Part shown: piece after piece, positions 4,170 to 34,027 of the stretch
How positions within the stretch are numbered: position 1 is the stretch's first letter
Layout: every line of letters begins with the position of its first letter
NCBI GenBank assembly: GCA_945897085.1
Contig: CAMDEU010000005.1
Span: forward strand, 1-51,303
Direction of reading: 5' to 3'
DNA length: 51,303 bases
From: Spirosoma fluviale
Lineage (GTDB): Bacteria; Bacteroidota; Bacteroidia; Cytophagales; Cyclobacteriaceae
Translations under genes and position numbers: made by a program
Notes under the pieces: model-generated
Told to the model about the DNA's origin: nothing
Seen by the model: the letters and a program-made list of their open reading frames with translations, nothing else
Databases searched by the model: none

Positions 4170-4291
4170 AGTGTTAAGGATCAAGGATATATAGGATTAA
4201 CGCTCAAACAATGGTAAGAGTTTTTGGATTGGAAAATTAACTTTTTTTGATTTCAATTAAAGAATTAGCCAACACACTTTTTTCTAAAACC

Positions 4292-4321
4292 AAAAAAGGC
4301 CTTTCGATCGAAAGGCCTTTT
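4292..4321 (-). terminator. Rho-independent terminator of the upstream GSDH gene
   Basis: A 28-bp perfect palindrome (4294-4321, core GGCCTTTCGATCGAAAGGCC) begins 19 bases after the stop of the 4341-5492 gene on the minus strand and runs into six T residues. It separates the two tandem dehydrogenase genes, so the second copy may need its own promoter or rely on read-through. Confidence 0.85.
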
Positions 4322-4340
4322 GGAATATTTTTAGCAATGC

Positions 4341-5492
4341 TTATCGGATAGGAAGCAATTTGACCAATAGACCTGTTGCTTCCGTAATCGCATAGATGTA
4401 GCCTTCTGGGCTTTCAGCTACTTGACGTACACGTCCCAAGTCTTGAAGCAGTTTCTCCTCCTTCACAAAAGAGGTACCATTCATCTCCACGCGTGCAATG
4501 TGCTGCTTTGCAAGGGCCGCTACGAGGATATTGCCTTTCCATGCGGGGTATTTGTCAGACGTGACCACGGCCACCCCACAAGTAGCGATAGAGGGTACCC
4601 AGTAATGCTTGGGCTGCTCCATGCCCTCTTTCTCTGTGATTTCTGTGATGGGTGTGCCATCGTAGTTGATGCCGTAAGTGATCACCGGCCACCCGTAATT
4701 CTTTCCTTTTTCGATCAGGTTGAGTTCGTCTCCGCCCATTGGACCATGCTCTACTTCCCAGATTCTATCGTTGGCTTTGTCGTAAATTAGACCCTGAGGG
4801 TTTCTATTGCCGTAGGTCCAGATTGAGCTGGTGATGCCCAAGGAATCTTTGAACGGATTGTCTGCAGGGATGCCGCCGTCGTCCTTAATGCGGTGAATTT
4901 TGCCATGGGCATTGTTCAAGTTTTGAGCATTCATTGGGATATTGCCCTTGTCTCCGTTGGAGAAGTACAGGTAGCCTGCCTTGTCAAATACGATGCGGCT
5001 ACCAAAGTGGCGGCCACCTTTCCAAGCGGGACCAGCTACGATGAGCTCCTCCTGATTCACCGCGGTATTTCCATCCAACTTGAATCGAAGAATGGTGGTA
5101 GCGGCGGTGCTGTCAGCAAAGTTTTGTGCATAAGAAATGTAAATCCAGCCATTTTCTGCATAGTTAGGATGCACAGCAACGTCCAAGAGACCTGCTTGAT
5201 TTACGTTGTGAACTGCAGGTAAACCTTGGATTTTTTCGCCTGTAAATTTATCCTCCTTGAAAACCAGGATTTCCCCTTTTCTTTCGGTGACGAGCATGGT
5301 GCCATCTGGAAGCCAAGTCATGCCCCAAGGGTTTTCCAAACCGGTATGGAGTGTATCGACTTTAATCAGCAACTTTTCTGTTTGAGTTGCGAAGGTTTCG
5401 TCGATAACGGGTGTTTTCGGGCCACAAGAGGTCCAAGTGATGGCTGCCATTGTCAAAATAGCTAGCGAGAGGTACAGGGAGCGTAATGTCAT
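4341..5492 (-). CDS. PQQ-dependent sugar dehydrogenase (GSDH family) lipoprotein, paralogue 2
   Basis: Second soluble PQQ-type sugar dehydrogenase, 383 residues, same fold and blocks as its neighbour (HPNYAENGWIYISY, YGNRNPQG, EHGPMGGDELN, NYGWPVITYG). The start is the ATG at 5492; the longer frame adds eleven residues unlike a signal peptide. The N-terminus is a short charged stretch, a hydrophobic helix and then TSC (Cys23), a plausible lipoprotein signal although Trp-Thr-Ser before Cys is not the classic lipobox. A promoter-like TACATTTG lies 21 bases upstream. The pair looks like a tandem duplication followed by divergence; whether they differ in substrate cannot be told. Confidence 0.87.
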   Translation of the reverse strand: MTLRSLYLSLAILTMAAITWTSCGPKTPVIDETFATQTEKLLIKVDTLHTGLENPWGMTWLPDGTMLVTERKGEILVFKEDKFTGEKIQGLPAVHNVNQAGLLDVAVHPNYAENGWIYISYAQNFADSTAATTILRFKLDGNTAVNQEELIVAGPAWKGGRHFGSRIVFDKAGYLYFSNGDKGNIPMNAQNLNNAHGKIHRIKDDGGIPADNPFKDSLGITSSIWTYGNRNPQGLIYDKANDRIWEVEHGPMGGDELNLIEKGKNYGWPVITYGINYDGTPITEITEKEGMEQPKHYWVPSIATCGVAVVTSDKYPAWKGNILVAALAKQHIARVEMNGTSFVKEEKLLQDLGRVRQVAESPEGYIYAITEATGLLVKLLPIR

Positions 5493-5512
5493 GATTTTTA
5501 CAGTTAGAACAG

Positions 5513-5520
5513 CAAATGTA
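5513..5520 (-). promoter_or_regulatory. Bacteroidota -7 element upstream of GSDH paralogue 2
   Basis: TACATTTG on the minus strand matches TAnnTTTG exactly and lies 21 bases before the chosen ATG. No clear -33 TTTG is seen at the expected spacing. The position supports the ATG at 5492 rather than the longer frame. Confidence 0.5.
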
Positions 5521-5671
5521 AACATCTCCTTCTAAATCTTTGTCAATTTTTGAATAGTGGTGATTGGAGAGGATTAGCGTGCAGGCATTTCGCCTTGGAT
5601 CCGGAGTTTTAGGTGGATCATTCATCTTTGCGTAACTTCGCAGCAAGGAATTTTGGTACTCCTTTTTGCCT

Positions 5672-8311: not shown

Positions 8312-8643
8312 CATTCAACTTTTTTAAACGAATATTAACTTCTAGTTATTTAATTTTTTTTTGCCGGATTGGGATGGAAAAGTCTTCTTAGTTAACTAAA
8401 GATTGTAAACCCCTGATCTGCCGAACTTAGATTGCCAAACAAGGAGTAGTAGCGTAACTAAGAATTATTAAGGCAGTATTATGCAGGATGGTTCAAATTC
8501 GTTTGAAATCACTTTTCAAATTACCTATTTAACGAGCATCCTTATTTTTTTGGTAAAAGGGCTTTAATATTCAAGCAATATACTTGAGATAATTTTGAAG
8601 AGAATTAAATCAAAAAATTCCAGTCCCAAACTACTACTCAATT
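8312..8643. other. AT-rich leader region upstream of the SusC gene
   Basis: About 330 bases without a coding frame, rich in A and T, between the phosphatase remnant and the SusC start. A TAATTTTG at 8590-8597 matches the Bacteroidota -7 element. I see no inverted repeats strong enough to call an operator, no riboswitch I recognise and no ECF-type regulator gene. Confidence 0.5.
8590..8597 (+). promoter_or_regulatory. Candidate -7 element of the SusC gene
   Basis: TAATTTTG matches TAnnTTTG and lies 46 bases before the ATG at 8644. The expected -33 TTTG is not clear; the nearest partial match is TTTA at about 8563. The region is AT-rich, so a chance match is possible. Confidence 0.35.
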
Positions 8644-11600
8644 ATGATTGCTCAAAAAAGCATTTGGAGGTGTTTAATGACGGCATGTTTGCTGCTTACC
8701 CTCAACTTTACTTTTGCCCAACAAACTCAAGTGACGGGTAAAGTTAGCGACAGCAAAAATGAACCTCTTCCTGGCGCAACCGTGTTGGTCAAAGGTACCA
8801 GCCGTGGAACGGTAACTGATATAGACGGATCCTACGCGATTCAGGCAGCCACTGGCGAAGTGTTGGTTTTTTCATTTGTAGGATTTGAATCCAAAGAAGC
8901 ACAAGTTGGGACATCTTCTAAGTTAGATATCTCACTTTCAGAAGGTTTGGCATTAAATGAAGTTGTTGTTACAGCTCTTGGTGTAGAAAGACAAACAAAA
9001 GCGTTAGGCTATTCCATTCAAGCAGTAGACGGAAGCCAGTTCACAGAAGCTAGAGAGACAAACGTAATTAACTCACTTAGCGGCCGCGTAGCAGGTGTTC
9101 AAATCACCAACAGTTCTACAGGCATTGGAGGATCAACTCGTGTCACTATTCGAGGAGAATCTTCCCTAAATATCAACGCAAACCAGCCACTTTTTGTAGT
9201 GGACGGTGTTCCTATTTCAAACAACGTTGTGGGATCTTCTGGTCGTTCCAATCAGGAAGCTGATTATGGAAACGCAGCAGGTGAAATCAATCCAGATGAT
9301 GTGGCCTCTATGACGGTACTTAAAGGTCCTGCAGCCGCGGCATTGTATGGTTCTAGAGCAGCAAACGGCGCGATCCTAATCACTACAAAATCTGCCAAAG
9401 GCAAAAAAGGAATGGGTGTAACCATCAATTCCAACATCACGTTTGACGAAACGCTAAGAATGCCACAGTGGCAAGACAAATACGGTCAAGGTAACAACGG
9501 TACATTTGCCTTCAGAAATGGAGCAGGAGCCGGTGTTTCCGATGGTGTTGACGAAAGCTGGGGTCCTGAGTTGGATAAGGGTTATGCTACCACTCAATTT
9601 GACTCTCCAAGATCAGAATCTGGATTTAGAGGTGGTGATTTAAATGCACCTGCCTCCAGCACAATTTCCTTGACTCCTTGGGTTTCTCGTCCCAACAATA
9701 TCGATGAGTTCTTCCAAACAGGAATAACCCGCTCAAATAACTTTTCGATCGAAGGATCAAACGAAAAATCGAATATTAGACTTTCTTGGACCAACTTGGA
9801 CCAAACGGGAATTATTCCAAACACGGATTTGAAAAGAAATACCTTATCCATGAATGGGGGTATTAACGTGACCGATAAGTTGACTGTGAATTCCACATTT
9901 AACTACCAAAATACTGATAGCGGGAACAGACCTAATATTTCCTATGGTACAGAAAGCTTAATGTACCTATGGATTTGGTACGGTCGACAGGTAGATACGC
10001 GAAACCTAAGAGATTATTGGATGCCAGGATTAGAAGGTGTTCAACAGTTTAACTACAACTACAACTACCACGATAACCCGTACTTCAACGTGTATGAAAA
10101 TACAAACGGACAATCAAAAGGCAGAGTTTTTGGAAATGTAAGTGCTACATACAAGTTTACTCCGAAGTTGAGCTTAATGGTAAGATCTGGTCTAGATACT
10201 TACAATGAACTTCGTGATCGGAAGAGAGCGTTTAGTACGCAGCGATTCCCTAAGGGTAGCTACAGAGAGGATAATATCTTTTTCTCTGAGCAAAACTCAG
10301 ACTTCTTGCTTTCTTACTCCGAGACCACAAAATCTACTTGGTCTTACAGCTTAGCGGTAGGTGGTAACGCCATGCGTCAAAACAATCGCTACCTAGAAAC
10401 AGTAGCTCCACAATTGCTTATTCCTGGAATCTACAATTTCACCAATACAGCCGTTAACCTTCAGATCAGCCAGGCTAACTCAGAGAAGAGAATCAACTCC
10501 ATCTATGGTTTTGGACAAATAGGATTTAAGAATGTCCTGTTCCTTGATGTTACTGGACGAAATGACTGGTCAAGTACCTTGCCTGTCAACAATAACAGCT
10601 ACTTCTACCCTTCTGCTACACTCAGTGCCGTAGTGTCAGACATGATCACGCTTCCTTCTGCAATCTCTTTCTTTAAACTAAGAGGCGCGTACGCTGAGGT
10701 AGGTAACGATACAGATCCTTATGCGTTGGCAAACGTGTACAACTCAGCAACTGCTTGGGGTAGTATCCAGGCAAAATCTGAGTCAAATAGATTGGCAAAT
10801 GCTAACCTTTTACCAGAGCGTACTTCTTCCGTTGAAGCAGGTTTCGATGCACGGTTTTTGAATGGAAGATTAGGACTTGACTTTACCTACTTTAACAACG
10901 AGACTAAAAATCAAATTATTCCAATTGAATTGGATATCGCAACGGGCTACGCGTCAAGAATCATCAATGCAGGAAGTATACAGAACAAAGGGATTGAAAT
11001 AATATTGAATGGTACGCCAATCAAATCAGCGTCAGGCGTAACGTGGAATTTCTTTGCAAACTTCACTCGTACGAGAGGAAAAGTACTCGAGTTGACTGAC
11101 GAATTGACCACCTATTCCATGACAGGAAAAAATGGTGCAAATATTCAAGCTAGAGTTGGCGAGCGTATGGGCAACATTTATGGAGCTGGTTTTGCGCGTG
11201 TTGCTGATCCAGCATCTCCTTACTTCAACCAAATCATCCACACTGCTTCTGGTACTCCCACTGTTAATCCTACCTTGAAGCTTCAAGGTAATTATAATCC
11301 AGATTGGATGCTTGGCTTACAAAATAATGTGAGCTACAAAGGACTTTCCTTAGGCTTCCTTTTTGACTACAGACATGGGGGAATCGTAGTTTCTCGAACT
11401 AAGACCATTGGATCTACATCCGGTCAATTGGAAGAGACCTTGTATGGTCGTGAGAATGGCTATGATATTACACTTCCTGGGAATGGTATAATTTCTGAAG
11501 GGGTTATTAAAAATGCGGATGGTTCGTTTACACCAAATACCATCAAAATCACTTCTAGAAACTGGCACAACCGTTACTACGAGCGAAACAACGTGGAAGC

Positions 11601-11859
11601 AGCCAAATATGACGCTACCTTCCTTAAGCTTCGCGAAGTGACCATTGGATATACCATTCCTAAAAAATTGCTAACCAGAATTCCAGTTCAAGATATAAAA
11701 ATCTCATTGGTAGGTAGAAACTTGGCGCTTTGGACGGAGAACCCGCACATTGATCCAGAGACAATGTCTATGAGTGGTGGCACCTTGATTCCAGGTGTGG
11801 AAGACATGGCTATCCCATCTACAAGAAACATTGGATTTAATCTGAATATCAAATTCTAA
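8644..11859 (+). CDS. SusC/RagA family TonB-linked outer membrane transporter
   Basis: Outer-membrane 22-strand barrel that, with the SusD lipoprotein, imports nutrients using TonB energy. The signal peptide ends near residue 25 (TFAQ). A carboxypeptidase-regulatory-like domain spans about residues 29-105 (VTGKVSD...PLPGATVLVKGT). The plug domain follows (about 115-230, with LNEVVVTALG, RVAGVQI, PLFVVDGVP and GPAAAALYGSRAANGAI). The barrel ends in GFNLNIKF with a terminal Phe. At 1071 residues it is of normal size. There is no N-terminal anti-sigma-interacting domain. The gene stands immediately before SusD and a set of phosphohydrolase and phosphonate genes, so its cargo is probably a phosphorus-containing compound (inference) rather than a plain glycan. 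Confidence 0.95.
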   Translation: MIAQKSIWRCLMTACLLLTLNFTFAQQTQVTGKVSDSKNEPLPGATVLVKGTSRGTVTDIDGSYAIQAATGEVLVFSFVGFESKEAQVGTSSKLDISLSEGLALNEVVVTALGVERQTKALGYSIQAVDGSQFTEARETNVINSLSGRVAGVQITNSSTGIGGSTRVTIRGESSLNINANQPLFVVDGVPISNNVVGSSGRSNQEADYGNAAGEINPDDVASMTVLKGPAAAALYGSRAANGAILITTKSAKGKKGMGVTINSNITFDETLRMPQWQDKYGQGNNGTFAFRNGAGAGVSDGVDESWGPELDKGYATTQFDSPRSESGFRGGDLNAPASSTISLTPWVSRPNNIDEFFQTGITRSNNFSIEGSNEKSNIRLSWTNLDQTGIIPNTDLKRNTLSMNGGINVTDKLTVNSTFNYQNTDSGNRPNISYGTESLMYLWIWYGRQVDTRNLRDYWMPGLEGVQQFNYNYNYHDNPYFNVYENTNGQSKGRVFGNVSATYKFTPKLSLMVRSGLDTYNELRDRKRAFSTQRFPKGSYREDNIFFSEQNSDFLLSYSETTKSTWSYSLAVGGNAMRQNNRYLETVAPQLLIPGIYNFTNTAVNLQISQANSEKRINSIYGFGQIGFKNVLFLDVTGRNDWSSTLPVNNNSYFYPSATLSAVVSDMITLPSAISFFKLRGAYAEVGNDTDPYALANVYNSATAWGSIQAKSESNRLANANLLPERTSSVEAGFDARFLNGRLGLDFTYFNNETKNQIIPIELDIATGYASRIINAGSIQNKGIEIILNGTPIKSASGVTWNFFANFTRTRGKVLELTDELTTYSMTGKNGANIQARVGERMGNIYGAGFARVADPASPYFNQIIHTASGTPTVNPTLKLQGNYNPDWMLGLQNNVSYKGLSLGFLFDYRHGGIVVSRTKTIGSTSGQLEETLYGRENGYDITLPGNGIISEGVIKNADGSFTPNTIKITSRNWHNRYYERNNVEAAKYDATFLKLREVTIGYTIPKKLLTRIPVQDIKISLVGRNLALWTENPHIDPETMSMSGGTLIPGVEDMAIPSTRNIGFNLNIKF

Positions 11860-11896
11860 GCAGTTGGTAATTCGACAACATTAAAAAATAGAACTT

Positions 11897-13447
11897 ATGA
11901 AATTAAATAAAACATACTTTTCCGGCTTAGCAATTGCCCTTATGCTGGGTGTGAGCAGCTGCGATAAAGATTTCGAAAAAGTAAACACCAACCCAAATAG
12001 CCCTGAGAAAGTATCTTCCGCGCTACTTTTACCAAACGTCATTCGAAATACAACGAATGAAATTGCAGGTAATTCTTGGGGATATGGCAACATTGTTATG
12101 CAATACACTGCTAAGATCCAGTTTACCAATGAGGATAGATACAACTGGGGCCCTCAAAGTAGCCCTTACAGCTCCTTTTACAATGCGCTTCGTGATATTA
12201 ACAACATCATTGAAATCTCTGGCGCTTCGAAGCAGCAAAATTATGTAGGTATTGCCAAGGTGATGCGCGCACATTTGTTTGCATACATGAGTGATGCGTA
12301 TGGCGAGATTCCTTACTCCGAATCGTTGCAGGCAAAGGGTGAACTAAACTATCCAAAATTTGACACCCAGGAAGTCATCTTTGCAGGTGTGTTGAAGGAA
12401 TTGGAAGATGCAAATGCGCTATTAGGAACTACTACGGAAAAAGTTGAAGGAGATATCTTATTCAATGGAAATGTTACGCTCTGGAAAAAATTCGCCAATT
12501 CACTTCGCCTTCGTATTTTGATGCGTCTTTCTGATCGAAAGGATCCATCTCAAGCCATGCAGGCTATTTTGAGCAATCCTACTCAGTCTCCAATTTTTAG
12601 CACTCCAACTGAGCAAGCTGCTTTTCAATACCTTCAGGATGTGCCAAACCAACAGCCTTTATATACTACCCGTTCTGGTTCTTTCGACGAAGTACGTTTA
12701 AGCGAGCGTCTCGAAAGCGAGTTGAAAGGGTTAAATGATCCAAGATTGTTCGCGTATGCCCAACCAACCACAAGTTCTGCAGCAGGCGTTTTAGGTGCAG
12801 TTACCGCTTATGAAGGGGTACCTAACGGATTAGGTGATGAGGAAGCGCTAAAATATTCTCCATCGGGTGATGCTACGAAGGGCGGTTCAAACTTCATTTC
12901 TAGAGTTGGTCTTCTTTGGGCTTGTTCAGCTTGTACTACACAAGCAAGTCCAGTAGGGGCTCAGTCTATCTTGATGAGTTATGTTGAAGTTCAATTTATT
13001 CTTGCTGAAGCCAGAGAGCGCGGATTTATTACCACAGGAACGGCTGAAGATTATTACAAAAAAGGAATCCAAGCTTCAGTAGACTATTACAAAGCAAGAT
13101 ATACGGTAATCAGTCAGCCAACAATTGCTGCGAAGCTTGTCTTAGATGATGCCTACTTCGCTCAGACTAAAGTTGCCTATTCAGGTACAACTCAAGAGAA
13201 ATTAGCAAAAATTGGTACGCAGAAATGGATTGCTCTTTTCTTCAGCGGCATGGAGTCTTGGCACGATTGGAAGCGAACAGGCTATCCAAGCATTAAACCA
13301 GGACCTGCGGCCTTCATTGCAACCGTACCTGTTCGATTCATGTATCCAAGTAGTGTACAGTCGTTGAATGGAGATAATTACAAAGCAGCTCTTGGCCGCC
13401 AAGGCGTGGATGCAATCTCCACACGCGTGTGGTGGGATGTGAAATAG
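11897..13447 (+). CDS. SusD/RagB family nutrient-binding lipoprotein
   Basis: Surface lipoprotein that caps the SusC barrel and binds the incoming substrate. The signal peptide ends in a VSSC lipobox (Cys22), followed by DKDFEKVNTNPNSPEKV, which is characteristic of the SusD-like_2 subgroup. The rest is helical with TPR-like stretches and a C-terminal ending typical of the family (GVDAISTRVWWD). Length 516. It begins 37 bases after SusC and is followed by a strong terminator hairpin at 13474-13507. Binding specificity cannot be read from the sequence; the neighbours suggest a phosphorus compound. Confidence 0.93.
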   Translation: MKLNKTYFSGLAIALMLGVSSCDKDFEKVNTNPNSPEKVSSALLLPNVIRNTTNEIAGNSWGYGNIVMQYTAKIQFTNEDRYNWGPQSSPYSSFYNALRDINNIIEISGASKQQNYVGIAKVMRAHLFAYMSDAYGEIPYSESLQAKGELNYPKFDTQEVIFAGVLKELEDANALLGTTTEKVEGDILFNGNVTLWKKFANSLRLRILMRLSDRKDPSQAMQAILSNPTQSPIFSTPTEQAAFQYLQDVPNQQPLYTTRSGSFDEVRLSERLESELKGLNDPRLFAYAQPTTSSAAGVLGAVTAYEGVPNGLGDEEALKYSPSGDATKGGSNFISRVGLLWACSACTTQASPVGAQSILMSYVEVQFILAEARERGFITTGTAEDYYKKGIQASVDYYKARYTVISQPTIAAKLVLDDAYFAQTKVAYSGTTQEKLAKIGTQKWIALFFSGMESWHDWKRTGYPSIKPGPAAFIATVPVRFMYPSSVQSLNGDNYKAALGRQGVDAISTRVWWDVK

Positions 13448-13473
13448 TGACCTAAAATTTGATTAGCTACCCT

Positions 13474-13507
13474 AAAATCTGCCAGCGGTACAGCTGGCAG
13501 ATTTTTT
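13474..13507 (+). terminator. Terminator or attenuator between SusD and the downstream hydrolase genes
   Basis: A 13-bp perfect stem (13474-13486 with 13493-13505, loop GGTACA) rich in GC at its core (CTGCCAGC) runs into a T6 tract. It stands only 15 bases before the next start codon and on the same strand. It would let SusCD be made in excess over the downstream enzymes by partial read-through. Confidence 0.85.
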
Positions 13508-13521
13508 AAATTTGAACAATT

Positions 13522-14613
13522 ATGAAAGCAAAATTTCTTACCCTCTTACTTCTCGCCAGTTTAAGTTTTGGAGCTCATGCCCAATCAAAAAAAACGGCCA
13601 CTGAAAATATTATCTTGGTCACCTTTGATGGATTAAGATGGCAGGAGCTTTTTAAAGGCGCTGATTCACTCTTGATCGATGATACAGGATTGATCGACCA
13701 AGCAGGTTCCTTGCTTTCCACTTATTGGGATGAAGATCCGATCAAGCGTCGTGAAATGCTTTTTCCTTTTTTCTGGAGCACCATTGCGAAAGAAGGCCAG
13801 CTCTATGGCAACCGGGCTTATGGGAATATGGCGGACAATACCAACAAAATGTGGTTTTCCTACCCTGGATACAATGAGTTTTTAAGTGGATTTGCGGACG
13901 ATTCTCGCATCAATTCCAACAATAAATTTTACAACCCAAATGTGACTTTACTTGAGTACCTCAACCAAATGCCAGCCTTTAAAGGAAAGGTAATGGCATT
14001 TGCGAGTTGGGATGTTTTCCCATTCATCATCAACACGGAGCGGAGTGGGATTCCAGTAAATGCTGGTTTTGACATTGCAAAAGGCACTGATCTGACGGAT
14101 GTTGAAAAAACAGTCAACAGGTTGCAACAAGAAATTCGTGGTCCTTGGGGAGGGGTTCGTTTGGATGCATTTACACAAGCCTATGCATTGGAAGCAATCA
14201 AAAAATACAAGCCGAAGGTGCTATATGTTGCGTATGGAGAAACGGATGACTGGGCTCATGATGGAAAATACGATCAGTACCTACTTTCAGCTACCCAGAC
14301 CGATAAATACATCCAAGAGCTTTGGAATACCCTTCAAGCGGATCCTCAGTACAAAGACAAGACTACCCTGCTAATTAGCGTGGATCATGGTCGTGGAATC
14401 ACCAAAGAGAGCTGGAAGAGTCATGGAGCTCGGGTACCTGAGGGGGGTGAAATTTGGCTTATGGCTATAGGTCCAGATACTCCTGCTGGCGGAGAAATGA
14501 AAATGAAGGGCCAATGGTCTTCTGCGATGGTGGCACGTACTGTATATGAATTACTTGGCCTTAGCTATCCAGATCCAAAGGCTGCTCCAGCGGTAAAGGA
14601 GATGATTAAATGA
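13522..14613 (+). CDS. Secreted alkaline-phosphatase-superfamily hydrolase
   Basis: Exported metal-dependent hydrolase of the alkaline phosphatase/sulfatase/NPP superfamily. The signal peptide ends near residue 21 (AHAQ). Metal-site blocks of the superfamily are visible: LVTFDGLRWQELF near the N-terminus, a likely nucleophile region in WFSYPGYNEFLSG, YGETDDWAHDG, and SVDHGRG...SHGARVPEGG. Length 363. The gene overlaps the next one by four bases (ATGA), so the two are coupled. It could release phosphate, a phosphonate or sulfate from an organic ester; the phosphonate genes downstream favour phosphorus, but this is inference. An outer-membrane or periplasmic location is likely. Confidence 0.85.
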   Translation: MKAKFLTLLLLASLSFGAHAQSKKTATENIILVTFDGLRWQELFKGADSLLIDDTGLIDQAGSLLSTYWDEDPIKRREMLFPFFWSTIAKEGQLYGNRAYGNMADNTNKMWFSYPGYNEFLSGFADDSRINSNNKFYNPNVTLLEYLNQMPAFKGKVMAFASWDVFPFIINTERSGIPVNAGFDIAKGTDLTDVEKTVNRLQQEIRGPWGGVRLDAFTQAYALEAIKKYKPKVLYVAYGETDDWAHDGKYDQYLLSATQTDKYIQELWNTLQADPQYKDKTTLLISVDHGRGITKESWKSHGARVPEGGEIWLMAIGPDTPAGGEMKMKGQWSSAMVARTVYELLGLSYPDPKAAPAVKEMIK

Positions 14614-16298
14614 AAAATTGGTCGTTAGGAATTGGGATTTCTTTAATTTTTCTACTTCAATCCTGTGCCGTACATTCTACTAAAAATACCTCTCCAACCT
14701 TTCGGGAGGCATTTTTTGCGGATGAAGAGGCTATTGCAGACTTTTTAAATAAGGGGATGCCCCAACCTTCCCTTGTATTAAACGAGGGGTGGATTTTTTT
14801 GGGTAAGGATTCGTTGCCTGGGATTTCAAGAAGCTTTTCTACGGATGTTCAAGGTGAATCTATTCAACTTCCACATCGAATTACCTTTGCGAATCATTCG
14901 TTTTGGTACCATAAAACCGTTGATCTCCAAGAAGGGATCTTAATTTTGGAGGGAGATGATGGGGTTCAACTTTGGATTGATGGAGAACAAATTCGAAGGA
15001 TGGAAGGAGGGGATTTTTTTCAAGTTGCTGCAAAAAAGGAGGCAAGTATAACCCTTCGTGTGGTGAACAATGCCATGGCTGGAGGATTGCAAAAAATGGG
15101 ATGGATGTCAACTCAGGAATTTTTGAGTTGGAAAAATCTGCGAAGTAGCGAAAGAGCTAAAGCGCTACAACTTCGAAAAGTGCAACTTCTCACGGATGAC
15201 CAACAGCAGCAACCTATTTCAAGCACATCCCAGGAGAATGAGCTAGCCCAGCTTCCTATGTTGATGACATCGCCTGTGCTAGTATTGGGAAGTGACCAGT
15301 CCTATTTTTTGCGTTGGGTAAGTGAAAAAGCTGGGGAAGCTACCCTTACTTTTAGCGGAGGCAAGGAGGTCAAGCTCAGCTCAGCGACAGGAATTTTTAC
15401 GCTACCTATCGATGGAGATGTGGAATTTGAGTTATGGCAGGAAAAGGCCTATCAAGGGAAGTTTACTTTTTCACTTCCCCGATGGGGTAAAAAAATTAAA
15501 CTTGCGATTTGGGCGGATTCACAAGGTGGATGGAAGCGTTTTGATCGCTTCACAAAGCTGATTCATGAGAATCAGGTTGACCTGAGTATTGGGGCAGGTG
15601 ATTTGGTGAATAACGGTTCGGAAGAAGATGCTTATCCGCGGTTTTTGCAAAAATTGAGTCAAATGAATTCGGCACAATTGCTGGTTCCTGGAAACCACGA
15701 TTACGACGGGTATTACGATGATTTAAATCCAGAGCAGCTTCAACAGTATTTGTTTCGGGAGAATGAGCCCCGGTATGGTTTTCAGCAACTCGGTCCTGTT
15801 GGGGTATTGACGCTTGATCCCAGTGAGAATTTTCCAGTAGCTATTGCTGAAACTAGTGAACAAGGGAAATTTCTCCATTCGGTTTTGAATTCGGAATCTT
15901 GGCTAAGTTCAAGTTGGAAAATGGTCGTTCTACACCAGCCACCTTACTCTCAAGGATGGCCAGGATACCATGGAGAAGAAAGTATTCGGGCCGTGTTGGA
16001 GCCCTATTTCCATGCGGGAAAAATTGATCTTGTTATTGCAGGCCACACCCATGATTACGAGCGGCTGACGAAAGAATTTTCTGGCAACCAAGTTCATTTT
16101 TTTATTGTGGGAGGCGCTGGAGGTGGGATGGAGCCAGAAGGAAGGATGTCCGATTACCCAATAATGGACCGCTTGATTAAGAAACATCATGTGGCTATCG
16201 CGGAGGTATCCGCATCTGTATTTGCTATTCGAATTTTGGGAAGTAATGCCGAACTCTTGGATCAACTTACCCTCACAAAAAAGGGAAATAAGAAATAG
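14610..16298 (+). CDS. Metallophosphoesterase lipoprotein with long N-terminal region
   Basis: Calcineurin/purple-acid-phosphatase-like metallophosphoesterase. The signal ends in LLQSC (Cys19), so it is probably a lipoprotein. The two-metal catalytic motifs appear in order: WADSQGG near residue 300, GAGDLVNNG near 327, GNHDYDG near 361, VVLHQPPYS, and GHTHDYERL near 478. The first metal block has Asp-Ser-Gln where many members have Asp-X-His. Residues about 20-290 precede the catalytic domain and look beta-rich, possibly a carbohydrate- or substrate-binding module; I do not recognise a named family. The ATG overlaps the preceding stop. It would hydrolyse a phosphomonoester or diester outside the inner membrane. 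Confidence 0.87.
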   Translation: MKNWSLGIGISLIFLLQSCAVHSTKNTSPTFREAFFADEEAIADFLNKGMPQPSLVLNEGWIFLGKDSLPGISRSFSTDVQGESIQLPHRITFANHSFWYHKTVDLQEGILILEGDDGVQLWIDGEQIRRMEGGDFFQVAAKKEASITLRVVNNAMAGGLQKMGWMSTQEFLSWKNLRSSERAKALQLRKVQLLTDDQQQQPISSTSQENELAQLPMLMTSPVLVLGSDQSYFLRWVSEKAGEATLTFSGGKEVKLSSATGIFTLPIDGDVEFELWQEKAYQGKFTFSLPRWGKKIKLAIWADSQGGWKRFDRFTKLIHENQVDLSIGAGDLVNNGSEEDAYPRFLQKLSQMNSAQLLVPGNHDYDGYYDDLNPEQLQQYLFRENEPRYGFQQLGPVGVLTLDPSENFPVAIAETSEQGKFLHSVLNSESWLSSSWKMVVLHQPPYSQGWPGYHGEESIRAVLEPYFHAGKIDLVIAGHTHDYERLTKEFSGNQVHFFIVGGAGGGMEPEGRMSDYPIMDRLIKKHHVAIAEVSASVFAIRILGSNAELLDQLTLTKKGNKK

Positions 16299-16422
16299 TA
16301 CCTTTGAAAACGCAAAAAAAGAGCTCCCAGAGCTAAGTTGGCTTTCATCCCCAGCTTTTCACATGATTTGTTATCAAATCATTATATAAACATCACCGTC
16401 CAATTAGGAATTTTTGAATTCT

Positions 16423-16430
16423 TAGATTTG
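16423..16430 (+). promoter_or_regulatory. Candidate -7 element of the phosphonate operon
   Basis: TAGATTTG matches TAnnTTTG exactly, 17 bases before the GTG start at 16448, within a 149-base gap that is the largest break inside the locus. Transcription from here would begin close to an out-of-frame ATG at 16437. The -33 element is not evident. Confidence 0.45.
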
Positions 16431-16447
16431 AAAAAAATGGTAAGCCT

Positions 16448-17497
16448 GTGCCCAAGTTTGCAAGCTTTTTAGACAGTAAAGAAAAATTCACCATTCAATT
16501 TCATCCCCTACCGGATTTGCAAGCCGGGGAGATTTTGGTTAGAAATCTAGCGGTCTCTATCTGTAGAAGTGATATCCATACCTATACCGGGAAAAGGACC
16601 GAAAAATCACCCGTTTTGTTGGGACACGAAGTCGTGGGTAGAGTGGAGTCGCTTGGGTCAACAGGAGTAATGCTAGATGTCCACGGGAAAAATGTTCAGA
16701 TTGGAGATAAAGTAACTTGGGCGATTTTTGCAAGCCCTCCTCTCGATCGGTATTCTCAACAAGGAATCCCCCAGAAGGCGGTCAACCTTTTTAAATATGG
16801 GCATGAAAAAATTGAAGACGGACATCATTTTCATGGGGGTCTTAGTGAGTACACTGTGTTACGAAAAGACACGCCCATTGCAATTTTAAGTCAGGAGCTA
16901 CCGAATCATATTGCCTCGCTTATTAATTGTACGGTAGCTACAGTCTCTGGAGCAGTTCGATTAGCCGGGGGAGTGAAGAATAAATCAGTGGCAATTTATG
17001 GAGCAGGAATGCTAGGGGTAGTCGCCTGTGCTATGGCTACTAGCTTTGGAGCAAAGAAGGTTGTAACAATTGATTTGAATAGCGAAAGAGGAGAGACTTC
17101 CAAAAATTTTGGTGCTGCGCAGTATTTTTTACCAGATGACCTTATCCAAGAAAAATTTGAGGTAGTCTTTGAGTTTACTGGTGCCGCTAAAGCCATGGAG
17201 CATTCGGTAAGGTTATTGGATATCGGAGGTGTCACAGTTTGGGTAGGTGCTGTATTCAAACAGGAAGATGTTCAGCTTAACGGTGAGTACCTACTAAGAA
17301 ACATGCTAACCATTAAGGGGCTCCACAATTACAATGTGGAGGACTTTGCCAATGCAGTTAATTTCATAGAAAATGAGTACAAGAATTTTGATTTTCTTCC
17401 CCTTATTATCGGTGGGTTTTTATTAGACGAGGTGGATGCGGCTTTTCTTTTCGCTATTCAACAAAATCCTTATCGAGTATCTTTACAATTGGAATAA
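16448..17497 (+). CDS. HpnZ-like (TIGR03366-type) alcohol dehydrogenase of phosphonate catabolism
   Basis: Medium-chain dehydrogenase resembling the family proposed to act in phosphonate catabolism operons. The start is GTG at 16448. Catalytic-zinc residues are in CRSDIHTYTGKR and GHEVVGRVE; the NAD-binding motif is YGAGMLGVVA. The family signature GIPQKAVNLFKYGHE is recognisable. The four structural-zinc cysteines that normally precede it (C-x2-C-x2-C-x7-C) are all missing: the stretch reads ASPPLDRYSQQGIPQKA. Its stop codon directly abuts the next ATG. A likely reaction is interconversion of a phosphonate alcohol and aldehyde, e.g. 2-hydroxyethylphosphonate and phosphonoacetaldehyde (inference). 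Confidence 0.78.
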   Translation: MPKFASFLDSKEKFTIQFHPLPDLQAGEILVRNLAVSICRSDIHTYTGKRTEKSPVLLGHEVVGRVESLGSTGVMLDVHGKNVQIGDKVTWAIFASPPLDRYSQQGIPQKAVNLFKYGHEKIEDGHHFHGGLSEYTVLRKDTPIAILSQELPNHIASLINCTVATVSGAVRLAGGVKNKSVAIYGAGMLGVVACAMATSFGAKKVVTIDLNSERGETSKNFGAAQYFLPDDLIQEKFEVVFEFTGAAKAMEHSVRLLDIGGVTVWVGAVFKQEDVQLNGEYLLRNMLTIKGLHNYNVEDFANAVNFIENEYKNFDFLPLIIGGFLLDEVDAAFLFAIQQNPYRVSLQLE

Positions 17498-18760
17498 ATG
17501 AAATTTATCAAATCTAATTCAGAGGCTTCATTCGTGATAAAAGCTGCAGCGGCAGTATTTATTACCTACCTGAGTATGTACGCCTTCCGGAAGCCATTTA
17601 CTTCAGCCCAATATGCGGATTACATCCTGTGGGGGATTGACTACAAGATCATCTTAATCATTGCGCAATTAGTAGGCTATACGCTTTCCAAATATTTTGG
17701 TATAAAAATCATCTCTGAACTTTCGGCGAGCAAGCGTACCATTACCTTAATTTTTCTAATGGCATTCTCCTGGCTTGCCTTGCTATTTTTTGGTATTGTT
17801 CCCGCCCCTTATAATTTACCTTTTATGTTTTTGAATGGCTTGCCTTTGGGGATGATTTGGGGGGTGGTGTTTAGTTACATCGAAGGCCGTAGGCATACAG
17901 AGCTTTTAGGGGTAGCGATGGCCTCAAGTTTTATTATTTCCTCCGGCATTGTCAAGGGAGTAGGAAGTTACCTGCTTATTAATCTACAAGTTTCAGAAAT
18001 GTGGATGCCGTTTTTTACGGGGCTACTGTTTTTACCGATTTTATTTTTAGGCATTTATCTTTTGCACTCCTTGGGCAATCCAGACGAAGGCGATGTGCTC
18101 GCTAGGACAGAGCGGAAGCCAATGGATGCGGCAGAGCGAAAAGCTTTTTTTAAACGTTTCGCCCCTGGAATCATTTTCTCAATTATCATTTATGTGTGCC
18201 TCACCATATTTAGAGACTTGAGAGACAATTTTGCGGTCGAGTTTTGGAAAAGTTTTGGGATTGAAAATATACCTAGCCTATTGGTATTGTCTGAACTACC
18301 CATTGCCTTATTCGTCATTCTGATCATTGGTTCGATGATATTTATAAAGAATAATAAGCAGGCATTTTTTTTCAATTTCTATATTCTACTTTTTGGAGGA
18401 GTTTTACTCCTACTCTCCACGATTTTGTTTTCCAATGACCTACTTTCTCCCACCGTTTGGATGATCCTCGTCGGGTTTTCGATGTATTTGCCCTACATCG
18501 CCTTTCATGCCCTATTTTTCGAACGGTGGATTGCCTATTTTAAGATAAAAAGTAACATTGGGTATTTAATGTATATCGTGGATGCTGCCGGCTACCTCGG
18601 AAGTACGCTGGTACTATTATTCAAAAACTTCAGCAATGTGGATTACAGTTGGGTAGCTTTTTTTATTGTGACGGCATTTGTCACCTCCATACTGATCATC
18701 CTACTCACTATTGCAAATTATTTCTATTTCAAAAATCAAGATAAATTGATCCTAACATGA
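17498..18760 (+). CDS. DUF5690-type MFS-like membrane protein, candidate phosphonate carrier
   Basis: Polytopic inner-membrane protein of 420 residues with about 10-12 hydrophobic segments and a charged central loop (residues about 200-225), as in major facilitator proteins. I recall this as the uncharacterised DUF5690 group. The first helix carries YAFRKPFTSA (Arg31, Lys32). This resembles the YYLVRKNF block of the GlpT/UhpT organophosphate antiporters, whose Arg binds phosphate. A helix in the second half has IFRDLRDNF (Arg239, Arg242), where GlpT has its second phosphate-binding Arg. It starts on the base after the dehydrogenase stop and overlaps the next gene by four bases. Transport of a phosphonate is inference. 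Confidence 0.7.
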   Translation: MKFIKSNSEASFVIKAAAAVFITYLSMYAFRKPFTSAQYADYILWGIDYKIILIIAQLVGYTLSKYFGIKIISELSASKRTITLIFLMAFSWLALLFFGIVPAPYNLPFMFLNGLPLGMIWGVVFSYIEGRRHTELLGVAMASSFIISSGIVKGVGSYLLINLQVSEMWMPFFTGLLFLPILFLGIYLLHSLGNPDEGDVLARTERKPMDAAERKAFFKRFAPGIIFSIIIYVCLTIFRDLRDNFAVEFWKSFGIENIPSLLVLSELPIALFVILIIGSMIFIKNNKQAFFFNFYILLFGGVLLLLSTILFSNDLLSPTVWMILVGFSMYLPYIAFHALFFERWIAYFKIKSNIGYLMYIVDAAGYLGSTLVLLFKNFSNVDYSWVAFFIVTAFVTSILIILLTIANYFYFKNQDKLILT

Positions 18761-19884
18761 AAAACAAATCAGCCATCGTTGTAGGAGCGGGAATTTTAGG
18801 ACTTGCCACAGCGCGAGCATTGGCAGCCAAAGGGTACGCAGTCACAGTCATTGAAAAAAGTCAATTTTCCCTTGGCGCAAGTGTGCGAAATTTTGGCATG
18901 CTTTGGCCTGTAGGTCAGCCCGAGGGAAAATTGTACAACAGGGCTTTACGAACCAAGGAAATTTGGTTGGACTACCTAACCGCCTCCAAAACCCCCTACA
19001 ATGCTTGTGGAAGCCTACACTTGGCCTATTCCAAAGAGGAAATGGATGTAGTGGAAGAAATTGGCGAACTTTTCCATGCCAACAAAAGACCGGTGTCTGT
19101 GATTTCAAAAGATTCGGTCCTAGAAAAATACAATGGGATCAATTCAGAAGGCTTATTGGGCGCACTAAGAAGTGAAGATGAGGTAATTATTGATCCAAGA
19201 GAGGCCATCAAAAACCTTCCCCAATTTCTCACCGAAAGATTCCAAATCAACTTCATTTGGGGTAAAGCCATCACACGAGTAGAACCAACTGTCGCTTACG
19301 CAGGTTCAACTTCCTACTCAGCGGACCTCATTTGCATCTGTTCAGGAGCTGATTTTGAAACCTTATATCCAGCGCTATTTAAGCAGCAACCGATCCAAAA
19401 AACCAAGCTGCAAATGATGCGATTCAGACATAAAGATCCTAGTTTTCAGATCAACGCGTCTGTTTGTGGAGGTTTGTCTTTGCTTCACTACAAAAGTTTT
19501 GCTGCATCTACGGCACAAGAAAAGTTGAGGATAAAGGTAGAGGCTGAACTGCCTGAGTACTTGAAAAATGGCATTCATGTCATGGTATCTCAGAACAACG
19601 CGGGAGAGCTTACCGTTGGAGATTCCCATGAATACGGACTTGATTTTGATCCATTTGACAGAATGGAAATTAATACCTTGATTTTGGACTACTTAAAGAA
19701 ATTCATGCACATCGACCAATGGGAAATGATTCAATCTTGGAACGGTGTTTATCCCATTATGATGAATGGTGCTAGTGATTTGTATTTAAATCCTGAACCA
19801 GGCATCCACATTTTAAATGGAATTGGTGGGCATGGAATGACCATGTCCTTTGGTTTTGCAGAAGAGATTATTGATACCCTTTAA
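18757..19884 (+). CDS. TIGR03364-type FAD-dependent oxidoreductase of phosphonate catabolism
   Basis: FAD amine oxidase/dehydrogenase of the glycine oxidase-like (DAO) fold. The dinucleotide-binding motif GAGILGLATARAL is at residues about 11-23. Family-typical blocks follow: SVRNFGMLWPVGQPEG, IDPREAI and, near the C-terminus, GIGGHGMTMSFG. The family is repeatedly found beside PhnX-like and PhnZ-like genes and was proposed to be phosphonate-linked; work on related enzymes points to oxidation of 2-aminoethylphosphonate or its N-alkyl derivatives to phosphonoacetaldehyde. Length 375. It overlaps the carrier gene upstream by four bases, and the HD gene begins 11 bases downstream. The exact amine used is not known. 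Confidence 0.82.
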   Translation: MKNKSAIVVGAGILGLATARALAAKGYAVTVIEKSQFSLGASVRNFGMLWPVGQPEGKLYNRALRTKEIWLDYLTASKTPYNACGSLHLAYSKEEMDVVEEIGELFHANKRPVSVISKDSVLEKYNGINSEGLLGALRSEDEVIIDPREAIKNLPQFLTERFQINFIWGKAITRVEPTVAYAGSTSYSADLICICSGADFETLYPALFKQQPIQKTKLQMMRFRHKDPSFQINASVCGGLSLLHYKSFAASTAQEKLRIKVEAELPEYLKNGIHVMVSQNNAGELTVGDSHEYGLDFDPFDRMEINTLILDYLKKFMHIDQWEMIQSWNGVYPIMMNGASDLYLNPEPGIHILNGIGGHGMTMSFGFAEEIIDTL

Positions 19885-19894
19885 TTCCTTGGTT

Positions 19895-20443
19895 ATGTTA
19901 AATCCCATTACCCAACAGATTTTAAATCTATTTGATCAAAATGGTTCCTCCATGTATGGAGGTGAAGCGGTTACCCAATTGGAGCATGCCTTGCAATGCG
20001 CTGAATTGGCTCGAAAGAATGGTGCTTCAGATGAATTGATCACCGCTTCCTTATTGCATGATGTAGGACATTTACTTCATGATTTGCCTGACGATGCGAG
20101 TGACAAAGGCATTGATGATTTGCATGAACTTTTGGGAGAGAAGTTTTTGGTACAGTATTTTAAATTAGCAGCTGTTCAGCCGGTCAAATTGCATGTTCAA
20201 GCAAAACGATACTTGTGCGCTACTGAAGAGGGGTATTATGAGGCCTTATCGAATTCTTCAAAAGTAAGTTTAGAGTTCCAAGGAGGAATCATGTCTCCTT
20301 CAGAAATGGAATTATTTGAAAAAAATGAATTTTATAAAGAAGCTGTAGCTCTGAGGAGATGGGATGATCTAGCAAAAGATCCAAACTTGGTGAGCCCTCC
20401 GATTTCTATTTTTGTCCCTTCAATTGAATTAGCATTAAAGTAA
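19895..20443 (+). CDS. PhnZ-like HD-domain phosphonate oxygenase
   Basis: Small di-iron HD protein of the phosphonate-operon HD family (TIGR03276-like), whose member PhnZ cleaves 2-amino-1-hydroxyethylphosphonate to glycine and phosphate. The start is the ATG at 19895; a longer frame inside the previous gene is a shadow. The diagnostic block YGGEAVTQLEHALQ gives Tyr21, Glu24 and His31, matching the Tyr/Glu lid pair and first iron ligand of PhnZ. LLHDVGHLLHD is the HD motif, and LHVQAKRYLC supplies the later histidine and the conserved Lys-Arg. Length 182. No PhnY-type 2-oxoglutarate oxygenase, which would make the hydroxylated substrate, lies in this window. Confidence 0.85.
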   Translation: MLNPITQQILNLFDQNGSSMYGGEAVTQLEHALQCAELARKNGASDELITASLLHDVGHLLHDLPDDASDKGIDDLHELLGEKFLVQYFKLAAVQPVKLHVQAKRYLCATEEGYYEALSNSSKVSLEFQGGIMSPSEMELFEKNEFYKEAVALRRWDDLAKDPNLVSPPISIFVPSIELALK

Positions 20444-20447
20444 GTAT

Positions 20448-21140
20448 ATGAAAGTAAAAATGGTTGTGTTCGATATGGCCGGTACCACGGTCGATGAGGG
20501 GAATGTGGTGTACCGAACCTTGCACCAGGCAATTGAAAAAAAAGCGCCTCATATTCGCTTTGAAGATGTATTGAAGTCAGGTGCGGGAAAGGAAAAACTA
20601 CAAGCTATCCGCGATACCTTGCTGGATAGGGCTACTGTATTGACCAAGGAAGAAGTAGATTCCATTTTCCAGGATTTTCTAGAAAGCCTTGACCTTGCCT
20701 ACAAGGAGTTGGTTGTAACTCCGACTAAAAACACCGAGAAATTAGTTAAGGAGCTTCGAGAATTAGATATTTTAGTGGTTTTAAATACCGGGTACAATAG
20801 AGTTACCGCTACTTCACTGATCCAAAAATTAAATTGGGAACAGGGGGTTCATTATGATTTGCTTGTGACCGCATCGGATGTAAAAAATAATCGCCCAAAG
20901 CCAGATATGATTTTGTATGCAATGGATCAATTTGCTATTCAAGATGCATTTACAGTGGTCAAGGTTGGGGATTCTACAGTTGATATAGAAGAAGGAAAAA
21001 ATGCGGGTTGTTTATTCACCATAGGCGTCACCACCGGAGCACACACCAAGGCCGAACTACTGACCGCAAATCCAGACTATATATTGGACGATATTTACGA
21101 TCTCAAAAAGGTGATTTTAAGTTTGAACCCAACTAGCTAA
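20448..21140 (+). CDS. PhnX-like HAD hydrolase (TIGR03351-type phosphonatase-like)
   Basis: HAD-superfamily enzyme closest to phosphonoacetaldehyde hydrolase, which splits phosphonoacetaldehyde into acetaldehyde and phosphate. The first motif is DMAGTTVDEG (Asp9, Ala11): the DxAGT form peculiar to phosphonatases, not the DxDxT of other HADs. NRPKPDM and VGDSTVDIEEGKNAG are motifs III and IV. The cap region carries GAGKEKLQAIRD (Lys48, Lys50), where PhnX has its Schiff-base lysine; whether either is equivalent is unclear. Length 230. It begins four bases after the HD gene and ends the five-gene run. C-P bond cleavage is the likely activity. Confidence 0.83.
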   Translation: MKVKMVVFDMAGTTVDEGNVVYRTLHQAIEKKAPHIRFEDVLKSGAGKEKLQAIRDTLLDRATVLTKEEVDSIFQDFLESLDLAYKELVVTPTKNTEKLVKELRELDILVVLNTGYNRVTATSLIQKLNWEQGVHYDLLVTASDVKNNRPKPDMILYAMDQFAIQDAFTVVKVGDSTVDIEEGKNAGCLFTIGVTTGAHTKAELLTANPDYILDDIYDLKKVILSLNPTS

Positions 21141-33840: not shown

Positions 33841-33961
33841 TTTTTTTCATTTAAGACCCTAAGCTAGCTAATTTTTTTGCCCTCAAAAAAACCACTTATC
33901 ATTTCTGCGTGTTATAGGATAAATTTTAAACTTGTGCCTCGGCAATTTCTTACGGAAAGTA

Positions 33962-33969
33962 TACCTTTG
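33962..33969 (+). promoter_or_regulatory. -7 element of gcvP
   Basis: TACCTTTG matches TAnnTTTG and lies 58 bases before the ATG at 34028. It falls inside the longer open frame beginning at 33932, which argues for the later start. Confidence 0.5.
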
Positions 33970-34027
33970 TACACGTAAAATCGGAAAGAATTCACACCCA
34001 AATAGTTCATACGTTCAACCCTTACTT

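Follow-up and report, generated by a model that had tools for sequence, protein, structure and literature searches.

What does an outer-membrane SusC-SusD pair import when the genes behind it encode secreted phosphoesterases and enzymes of phosphonate-type families? The question is raised by a nine-gene locus of Spirosoma fluviale (GenBank assembly GCA_945897085.1), located in a stretch of 51,303 nucleotides, denoted here the window, that is contig 5 of a draft genome (2.24 Mb, 77% complete). We consider it likely that this locus is a phosphonate-type "phosphate utilization system" (PUS), based on gene content, conserved linkage, protein families, active-site residues, and folds. All nine open reading frames (ORFs) that a first-pass annotation of the window had placed at 8644-21140 are present on the plus strand and match the families named there (Table 1). 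The tight packing described for the last five genes, from HpnZ to the HAD enzyme, is also borne out (gap 0, overlap 4, gap 4-10, and gap 4). The ORF of the HD oxygenase was listed from a TTG at 19850, and a start at 19889 or 19895 is more likely. As in PUS-type loci, the SusC-SusD pair has phosphoesterase genes downstream, encoding an alkaline-phosphatase-superfamily protein (ALP) and a metallophosphoesterase (MPE). Signal or lipoprotein leaders were recognized by eye on SusC, SusD, ALP, and MPE and on none of the last five gene products.

Linkage of SusC-SusD to the HD oxygenase

Within the genus, 36 genomes were compared, including that of the window. SusD orthologs, defined by at least 68% identity (no other SusD match in the genus exceeds 42%), were identified in 13 genomes, exactly those that encode the HD oxygenase, and in none of the 23 without it; the chance of such co-occurrence is 4.3e-10 if the genomes are treated as independent, which they are not. 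Genes for DUF5690 and phosphonatase-like proteins are present in these 13 genomes and in G013. HpnW, at 46% identity or more, is encoded in 12 genomes; G013 is one of them, whereas G025 and G029 are not. The latter two retain SusC-SusD, the HD oxygenase, and DUF5690 together, and their only HpnW and PhnX-like genes lie elsewhere in the genome. As the best marker of the system, HpnW was ruled out: G013 encodes HpnW, HpnZ, the PhnX-like protein, and DUF5690, with no HD oxygenase and no SusD ortholog. In G029 and G025 (L096 and L097), a sigma/anti-sigma-like pair and secreted proteins, recognized by eye, lie between MPE and HD-DUF5690.

Across the phylum, taken to be Bacteroidota because named relatives of the cassette belong there, the HD oxygenase was found in 17 of 395 genomes, and SusC and SusD are encoded within about 10 kb of it in 16 of the 17 loci (the window, L120 of G045, and 14 of the 15 loci L126-L140). 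Loss of the SusC-SusD pair from beside the other genes in relatives had been named beforehand as grounds for giving up the first-pass proposal; the pair is kept, both within the genus and beyond. For comparison, 20 control stretches of 20 kb were taken at round-number positions in 15 carrier genomes, namely G039 and those of the loci L126-L140 with the exception of G445. One of the 20 contained a SusD and 5 contained a SusC-like protein, so that Fisher tests of the 14/15 loci gave p values of 9e-8 and 9e-5, respectively. The SusC-like figure is given as well because the control SusDs, sought by BLAST with a few reference SusDs that were mostly HD-linked, may be undercounted; the length threshold for SusC was at least 250 aa in the case loci, where some genes run off the stretch, and at least 500 aa in the controls. 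By this comparison, chance or artifact was ruled out as the cause of the linkage.

According to BLAST searches, 13 of the 15 loci L126-L140 encode DUF5690, 14 a TIGR03364-type protein, and 11 a PhnX-like protein; the TIGR03364-type protein of L137, only 25% identical and on an extreme tree branch, is doubtful and probably does not belong to the family. A scan of named-species genomes yielded 571 candidate loci, 80 of which were listed, many too short to hold a neighbor. Among the loci listed, the order SusC-SusD-(HpnZ)-DUF5690-HpnW-HD-PhnX recurs in Chitinophagaceae, Sediminibacterium, and Daejeonella/Sphingobacteriaceae records, a different order is found in Aquirufa and Spirosoma-labeled records, and HpnZ belongs to the cassette in L143, L145, and L148-L152. 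A SusD was recognized in 17 of these 80 loci; the remainder include many that are short or belong to other phyla. Six Planctomycetota-type loci (five labeled as Planctomycetota genera or families, and L168, with phylum unstated) hold DUF5690, HD, HpnW, and PhnX, with HpnZ in five of the six; no SusC-SusD was found in the four that are long enough to judge (L165, L168, L178, and L184; 13-20 kb).

A regulator combining XRE and cupin domains (PuuR-like) is encoded in 8 of the 15 loci L126-L140 (L126, L128, L131, L133, L134, L136, L138, and L139) and is not among the nine genes of the window. A separate type of locus in the genus (L029, L035, L036, L111, and L112) comprises a DUF5690 gene divergent from an XRE-cupin regulator, HpnZ, and a PhnX-like gene, with no HD oxygenase; four of these five stretches have no SusC-SusD, and L029 has a distant one.

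Table 1. Genes of the Spirosoma fluviale locus and a candidate regulatory element, in window coordinates
Feature	Position	Strand	Evidence or remark
SusC/RagA TonB-dependent outer-membrane transporter	8644-11859	+	TIGR04056, 635.5 bits; signal peptide by eye
SusD surface lipoprotein	11897-13447	+	PF12771, 1.7e-99; lipobox-like VSSC by eye
Terminator-like hairpin (13 bp, T-rich tail) between the SusD and ALP genes	13474-13505	+	possible expression step-down
Secreted alkaline-phosphatase-superfamily phosphoesterase (ALP)	13522-14613	+	weak Pfam matches, predicted model, Foldseek
Secreted calcineurin-like, purple-acid-phosphatase-like metallophosphoesterase (MPE)	14610-16298	+	PF00149, 6.9e-18; lipobox-like LQSC by eye
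HpnZ-like zinc alcohol dehydrogenase	16448-17497	+	TIGR03366-like, 279.7 bits, below cut-off 328.1
DUF5690 inner-membrane carrier of the major facilitator superfamily, probable (amino)phosphonate importer	17498-18760	+	PF18943, 512.6 bits
PbfD/HpnW-type FAD amine oxidase	18757-19884	+	TIGR03364, 391.8 bits (cut-off 285.1)
PhnZ/TmpB-like HD di-iron oxygenase	19889-20443	+	TIGR03276, 213.9 bits (cut-off 214.6)
PhnX-like HAD enzyme, predicted phosphonoacetaldehyde hydrolase	20448-21140	+	TIGR03351, 206.6 bits (cut-off 218.9)

Catabolic enzymes and their predicted chemistry

In the NCBIfam comparison, each of the four enzymes finds its best match in the phosphonate family that the first-pass annotation had named. 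Only the TIGR03364 match passes its curated cut-off; TIGR03276 is missed by 0.7 bit, TIGR03351 by 12, and TIGR03366 by 48. The three distinct phosphonate enzymes proposed earlier are better described as a hydrolytic branch (FAD oxidase plus phosphonatase) and an oxidative branch (HD oxygenase).

The HAD enzyme scores 118.5 with the canonical PhnX model TIGR01422 (cut-off 220), and its best matches in the PDB are phosphonatases, that is, phosphonoacetaldehyde hydrolases (6.9e-16). Residues D9, A11, G47, and K50 are invariant in 40 of 40 aligned PhnX-type proteins, two of them canonical; among these we take the Asp to be the nucleophile, the Ala to replace the second Asp of other HAD phosphatases, and the Lys to form the Schiff base. 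The Lys aligns with the catalytic Lys position of PhnX, which is Arg in 2ioh. Judged by these aligned positions, the enzyme has the Asp, Ala, and Lys pattern of the phosphonatase mechanism. The best evidence that it does the same job as PhnX is an exchange of slots: in the two Planctomycetota-type loci tested, L165 and L168, the PhnX position is occupied by a canonical phosphonatase, with scores of 318 and 336 bits against the cut-off of 220.

The HD oxygenase is most similar among solved structures to TmpB (6npa, 1.7e-33) and PhnZ (4mlm, 3.2e-30), and the active-site positions of PhnZ/TmpB are invariant in nine sequences; these positions presumably comprise the active-site Tyr/Glu, the HD metal ligands, and a Lys. 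It is predicted to cleave (R)-1-hydroxy-aminophosphonates. No PhnY*-type hydroxylase is encoded among the nine ORFs, the rest of the genome not having been searched for it. In published cluster counts, phnZ accompanies phnWX in 15 of 1186 clusters and phnWAY in 24 of 75, which was interpreted as handling of R-HAEP, a 1-hydroxylated aminophosphonate that has been obtained from Acanthamoeba polysaccharides (PMC8154272). The HD branch is modeled here in the same way.

The FAD enzyme is predicted to convert 2-aminoethylphosphonate (AEP) or N-methyl-AEP (M1AEP) to phosphonoacetaldehyde. The TIGR03364 label is attached to a PbfD enzyme, and PbfD2 of Mariniblastus fucicola performs this conversion on both substrates, replacing PhnW (PMC10590968). 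The missing PhnW and C-P lyase genes to which the first-pass annotation drew attention were also sought outside the locus: neither PhnW (TIGR02326, E <= 1e-20) nor PhnJ (PF06007, E <= 1e-10) was detected in 14 genomes of the genus, of which 8 are at least 90% complete and one is the 77% complete genome of the window.

These enzymes could instead act in a single linear pathway on a phosphonate that is hydroxylated or N-methylated, with HpnZ and the HD oxygenase in series and, for example, HpnW deaminating 1-hydroxy-AEP. Such an arrangement would suit the joint occurrence of HpnZ, HpnW, HD, and PhnX in Planctomycetota-type loci and the TIGR03364 description, as quoted in PMC10590968, which suggests that very deamination. 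Those PbfD enzymes that have been measured, however, use M1AEP and AEP (PMC10590968). Furthermore, G025 and G029, in the arrangement described above, as well as L119 and L128, which hold SusC-SusD and HD without HpnW or PhnX-like genes in the stretch, indicate that the HD oxygenase can work apart from HpnW and the PhnX-like enzyme. We therefore regard a single linear pathway as very unlikely.

Secreted phosphoesterases and the nature of the cargo

The sequence support for the ALP fold is weak (Pfam about 2e-4, below gathering), and sequence searches against solved structures gave no match for either ALP or DUF5690, so predicted models were used for both. The ALP model (predicted local distance difference test [pLDDT] score, 79.7) is matched by Foldseek to YejM, LtaS, sulfatase, and NPP structures. 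D36, D242, H246, D288, H289, and H301, which we take to be the metal ligands, are invariant in 16 sequences. MPE is similar to PDB 1xzw (1.5e-8).

Under the PUS interpretation, SusC and SusD would import aminophosphonates, energized by TonB, of which those bound to glycans, lipids, or fragments are of most interest. ALP and MPE would cut phosphono-esters or phosphate esters in the periplasm, and DUF5690, a carrier resembling organophosphate:phosphate antiporters, would take the aminophosphonate thus released inward. The hydrolytic branch in the cytoplasm would consist of oxidation of AEP or N-methyl-AEP to phosphonoacetaldehyde by the PbfD-type enzyme and its conversion to acetaldehyde and phosphate by the PhnX-like enzyme; in parallel, the HD oxygenase would yield phosphate and glycine (or an analog) from aminophosphonates that are 1-hydroxylated, such as R-HAEP. 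HpnZ may act on a pathway alcohol or aldehyde. In this scheme we infer the substrates, the direction of transport, bound phosphonate as cargo, the role of HpnZ, and regulation; evidence that would suggest a bound cargo comes from only part of the loci.

A more far-reaching proposal is that these are phylum-wide phosphonoglycan/phosphonolipid loci, in which SusC-SusD would import macromolecule-bound AEP, N-methyl-AEP, and 1-hydroxy-AEP together from amoebal, bacterial, and invertebrate surfaces, with periplasmic release by phosphoester cleavage, DUF5690 as a new family of phosphonate carriers, two C-P cleavage chemistries side by side, and outer and inner modules exchanged independently between lineages. 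This proposal is tentative, and we hold it to be possible rather than probable.

Several observations weigh against the PUS interpretation. With regard to linkage, SusC-SusD and HD are about 23 kb apart in G017 and about 13-14 kb apart in G025 and G029, and in G004 and G007 they are split between contigs; L139 has no SusC-SusD within 10 kb on either side of HD, and six Bacteroidota-labeled loci longer than 11 kb (L156, L157, L158, L160, L162, and L172) have no recognized SusD. Three of the four enzymes score under the curated cut-offs, and lone DUF5690 genes without recognized phosphonate neighbors occur in other families of the order (L113, L114, L115, and L117). With regard to the phosphoesterases, ALP is encoded in 28 of the 36 genus genomes and is therefore unspecific, and in the 15 ALP genomes without HD it stands without SusC, SusD, or MPE in the fetched stretch (under 10 kb in two cases). 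MPE is missing from one locus of an HD genome (L033 of G031), and neither BLAST nor inspection by eye, without a Pfam scan, revealed a phosphoesterase of the kinds considered in 5 of the 17 phylum loci (L127, L129, L131, L134, and L138).

This separation of ALP from SusC-SusD implies a role for ALP apart from phosphonates, and as a marker of the system it was ruled out. The ALP-only loci (L091-L095 and L098-L107) mostly adjoin a gene for an RND-efflux-like protein of about 1440 aa, recognized by eye, and a partner of about 380 aa.

The frequent occurrence of ALP free of the phosphonate cassette would also fit general scavenging of organic phosphate, in which SusC-SusD, ALP, and MPE handle ordinary phosphodiesters and monoesters and the phosphonate cassette is merely a co-regulated neighbor; PUSI and PUSII of Flavobacterium have been described with phosphoesterases, and scavenging of this kind was proposed for PUSI (PMC8115612). 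The distribution of the other genes argues against it: all 13 genus genomes with HD have the SusD ortholog and none of the 23 others does, 12 of these 13 carry MPE at the locus while all 15 ALP-only stretches lack it, and the link between SusC-SusD and HD repeats in other families. General scavenging alone is therefore decidedly unlikely.

The loci without a recognized secreted phosphoesterase are relevant to another possibility, namely that SusC-SusD imports free small aminophosphonates only, and no polymer or lipid. Small substrates would suffice for the cytoplasmic enzymes. By contrast, 12 of the 17 phylum loci do encode secreted phosphoesterases, which belong to several unrelated families, and Planctomycetota-type loci (L165, L168, L178, and L184) run the cassette without SusC-SusD, so that import of free substrates only appears unlikely.

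A secreted protein of 800-930 aa with a PF04185 phosphoesterase domain recurs beside SusCD-HD in L120, L126, L128, L130, L135, and L142; several of these proteins show beta-propeller matches, and the operon of the window has no such protein. Similar small proteins are encoded near PhnX-like or DUF5690 genes at L123 (9931-10803), L131 (12977-13831), and L138 (6730-7572). They start with N/S-F/Y-H-T/S-H, appear PHP-phosphoesterase-like by eye, and could represent a further cytoplasmic member.

DUF5690, a probable inner-membrane carrier

The DUF5690 model (pLDDT, 90.5) adopts the major facilitator superfamily (MFS) fold. Its top fold match is human G6PT/SLC37A4, with other MFS carriers within about 1-2 Z. 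The hhalign scores were 23.4 for GlpT, 21.5 for UhpC, and 10.2 for MdfA, none significant. Like the AepP/GlpT organophosphate:phosphate antiporters, DUF5690 has a predicted MFS fold, and its transmembrane segments 1 and 2 contain GlpT-like motifs, the resemblance in segment 1 not being significant; there is no significant sequence match. DUF5690 is a probable (amino)phosphonate importer of the inner membrane. Since lone DUF5690 genes exist, the family appears broader than phosphonates. No paper on DUF5690 was found in the open-license literature.

Probable modular origin of the locus

The two halves of the locus differ in their closest relatives. The nearest same-genus copies other than those of G007 are 85% identical to the window protein for SusC (the G004 ortholog, L118), 84% for SusD, and 82% for ALP, compared with 51%, 45%, and 48%, respectively, for loci outside the genus. 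In the catabolic half, identity to Chitinophagaceae-type loci is 79% for HD, 78% for DUF5690, 78% for HpnW, 61% for HpnZ, and 71% for the PhnX-like protein, versus at most 40%, 47%, 48%, 42%, and 52%, respectively, for same-genus loci other than that of G007. In the SusD tree, which omits L131 and L139 for lack of a full SusD, the window groups with its own genus (100/100). In the HpnW tree (short search; L128, which has no HpnW, left out), the window and G007 are inside a Chitinophagaceae/Sediminibacterium clade (SH-aLRT 99), separate from the ten other HpnW proteins of the genus (100). By sequence similarity, the locus of the window is a hybrid, with a genus-native SusC-SusD-phosphatase part and a catabolic half nearest to Chitinophagaceae/Sediminibacterium. 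From the identities and the two trees, the catabolic module was probably swapped by horizontal transfer, with the break between 16298 and 16448. Both alternative catabolic modules carry the same four kinds of genes, namely HD, PhnX-like, DUF5690, and HpnW.

A single clade of HD-linked SusDs was ruled out: the label requires 4 changes on the tree, at least 2 of them forced by starred branches (shuffled mean, 19.0), in a test that is biased in that the unlinked rows are mainly the closest matches within the order and that L122 and L242 are contigs too short to judge linkage. HD-linked SusDs are spread over at least two lineages, in agreement with the published polyphyly of PusD (PMC8115612).

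Relation to known systems

The first-pass annotation had held the combination to be undescribed, which cannot be maintained in that form. PusCD systems of Flavobacterium have been described by Lidbury et al. with phosphatases, phosphodiesterases, and "phosphonate-degrading enzymes" (PMC8115612), and a PhnW-free route through PbfD and PhnX was published in 2023 (PMC10590968). No paper describing the combined locus was found in the open-license literature, so its absence in print is not shown.

Like the window, the Flavobacterium PUS have a SusC-SusD pair beside phosphomonoesterase and phosphodiesterase genes; the main text of that paper, figures and supplements aside, contains no "phn" gene name (PMC8115612). 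Here, by comparison, the cassette is defined, followed across the phylum, and found to be exchangeable. The PbfD2-PhnX route of M. fucicola shares with the window the TIGR03364/PbfD oxidase and PhnX without PhnW (PMC10590968), whereas the window has a TIGR03351-type PhnX-like protein instead of canonical PhnX, together with HD, HpnZ, DUF5690, and SusC-SusD, its enzyme functions being predicted. Common to the window and the PhnY*-PhnZ and TmpA-TmpB pathways is the HD di-iron oxygenase of the PhnZ/TmpB family; unlike them, the nine genes include no PhnY*/TmpA hydroxylase, and the oxygenase probably takes a pre-hydroxylated substrate. The parts are mostly known, and what is new is the defined, phylum-wide, modular unit and the proposal of bound phosphonate as SusC-SusD cargo.

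AEP mainly decorates cell surfaces, and most bacterial capacity for making phosphonates is thought to serve surface glycans and lipids (PMC6697681). PhnCDE, AepXVW, AepP, AepSTU, and PhnSTUV are inner-membrane transporters of free phosphonates (PMC10574752, PMC8316502). A TonB-powered route through the outer membrane, if real, would suggest who recycles bound phosphonates, would add reduced organic phosphorus to glycans and peptides as SusC-SusD cargo, and would provide DUF5690 and the PhnX-like family with testable functions.

Upstream sequence motifs and neighboring genes

When six genus loci were aligned upstream of SusC (window 8547-8597), a TTTTTTGGTAA element proved to be conserved, accompanied by a motif resembling TANNTTTG. 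Four of these six upstream regions contain a sequence near the palindrome TTTTGGTAAAATTTTTAACCAAAA, which is lacking in the window and G007. In the comparison with shuffled sequences, terminator-like sites numbered 14 (12.9 expected) and promoter-like sites 23 (27.9 expected). Neither count stands out from the shuffles. The idea that a specific operator or a Pho box precedes SusC was dropped, and the evidence for the hairpin between SusD and ALP is weak.

Elsewhere in the window, there is a gene for the glycine cleavage P-protein (33932-36907); the HD oxygenase would be expected to form glycine from R-HAEP, but this gene is common and unlinked to the operon. Upstream of the locus, on the minus strand (3012-5525), there are two tandem glucose/sorbosone dehydrogenase-like genes (PF07995).

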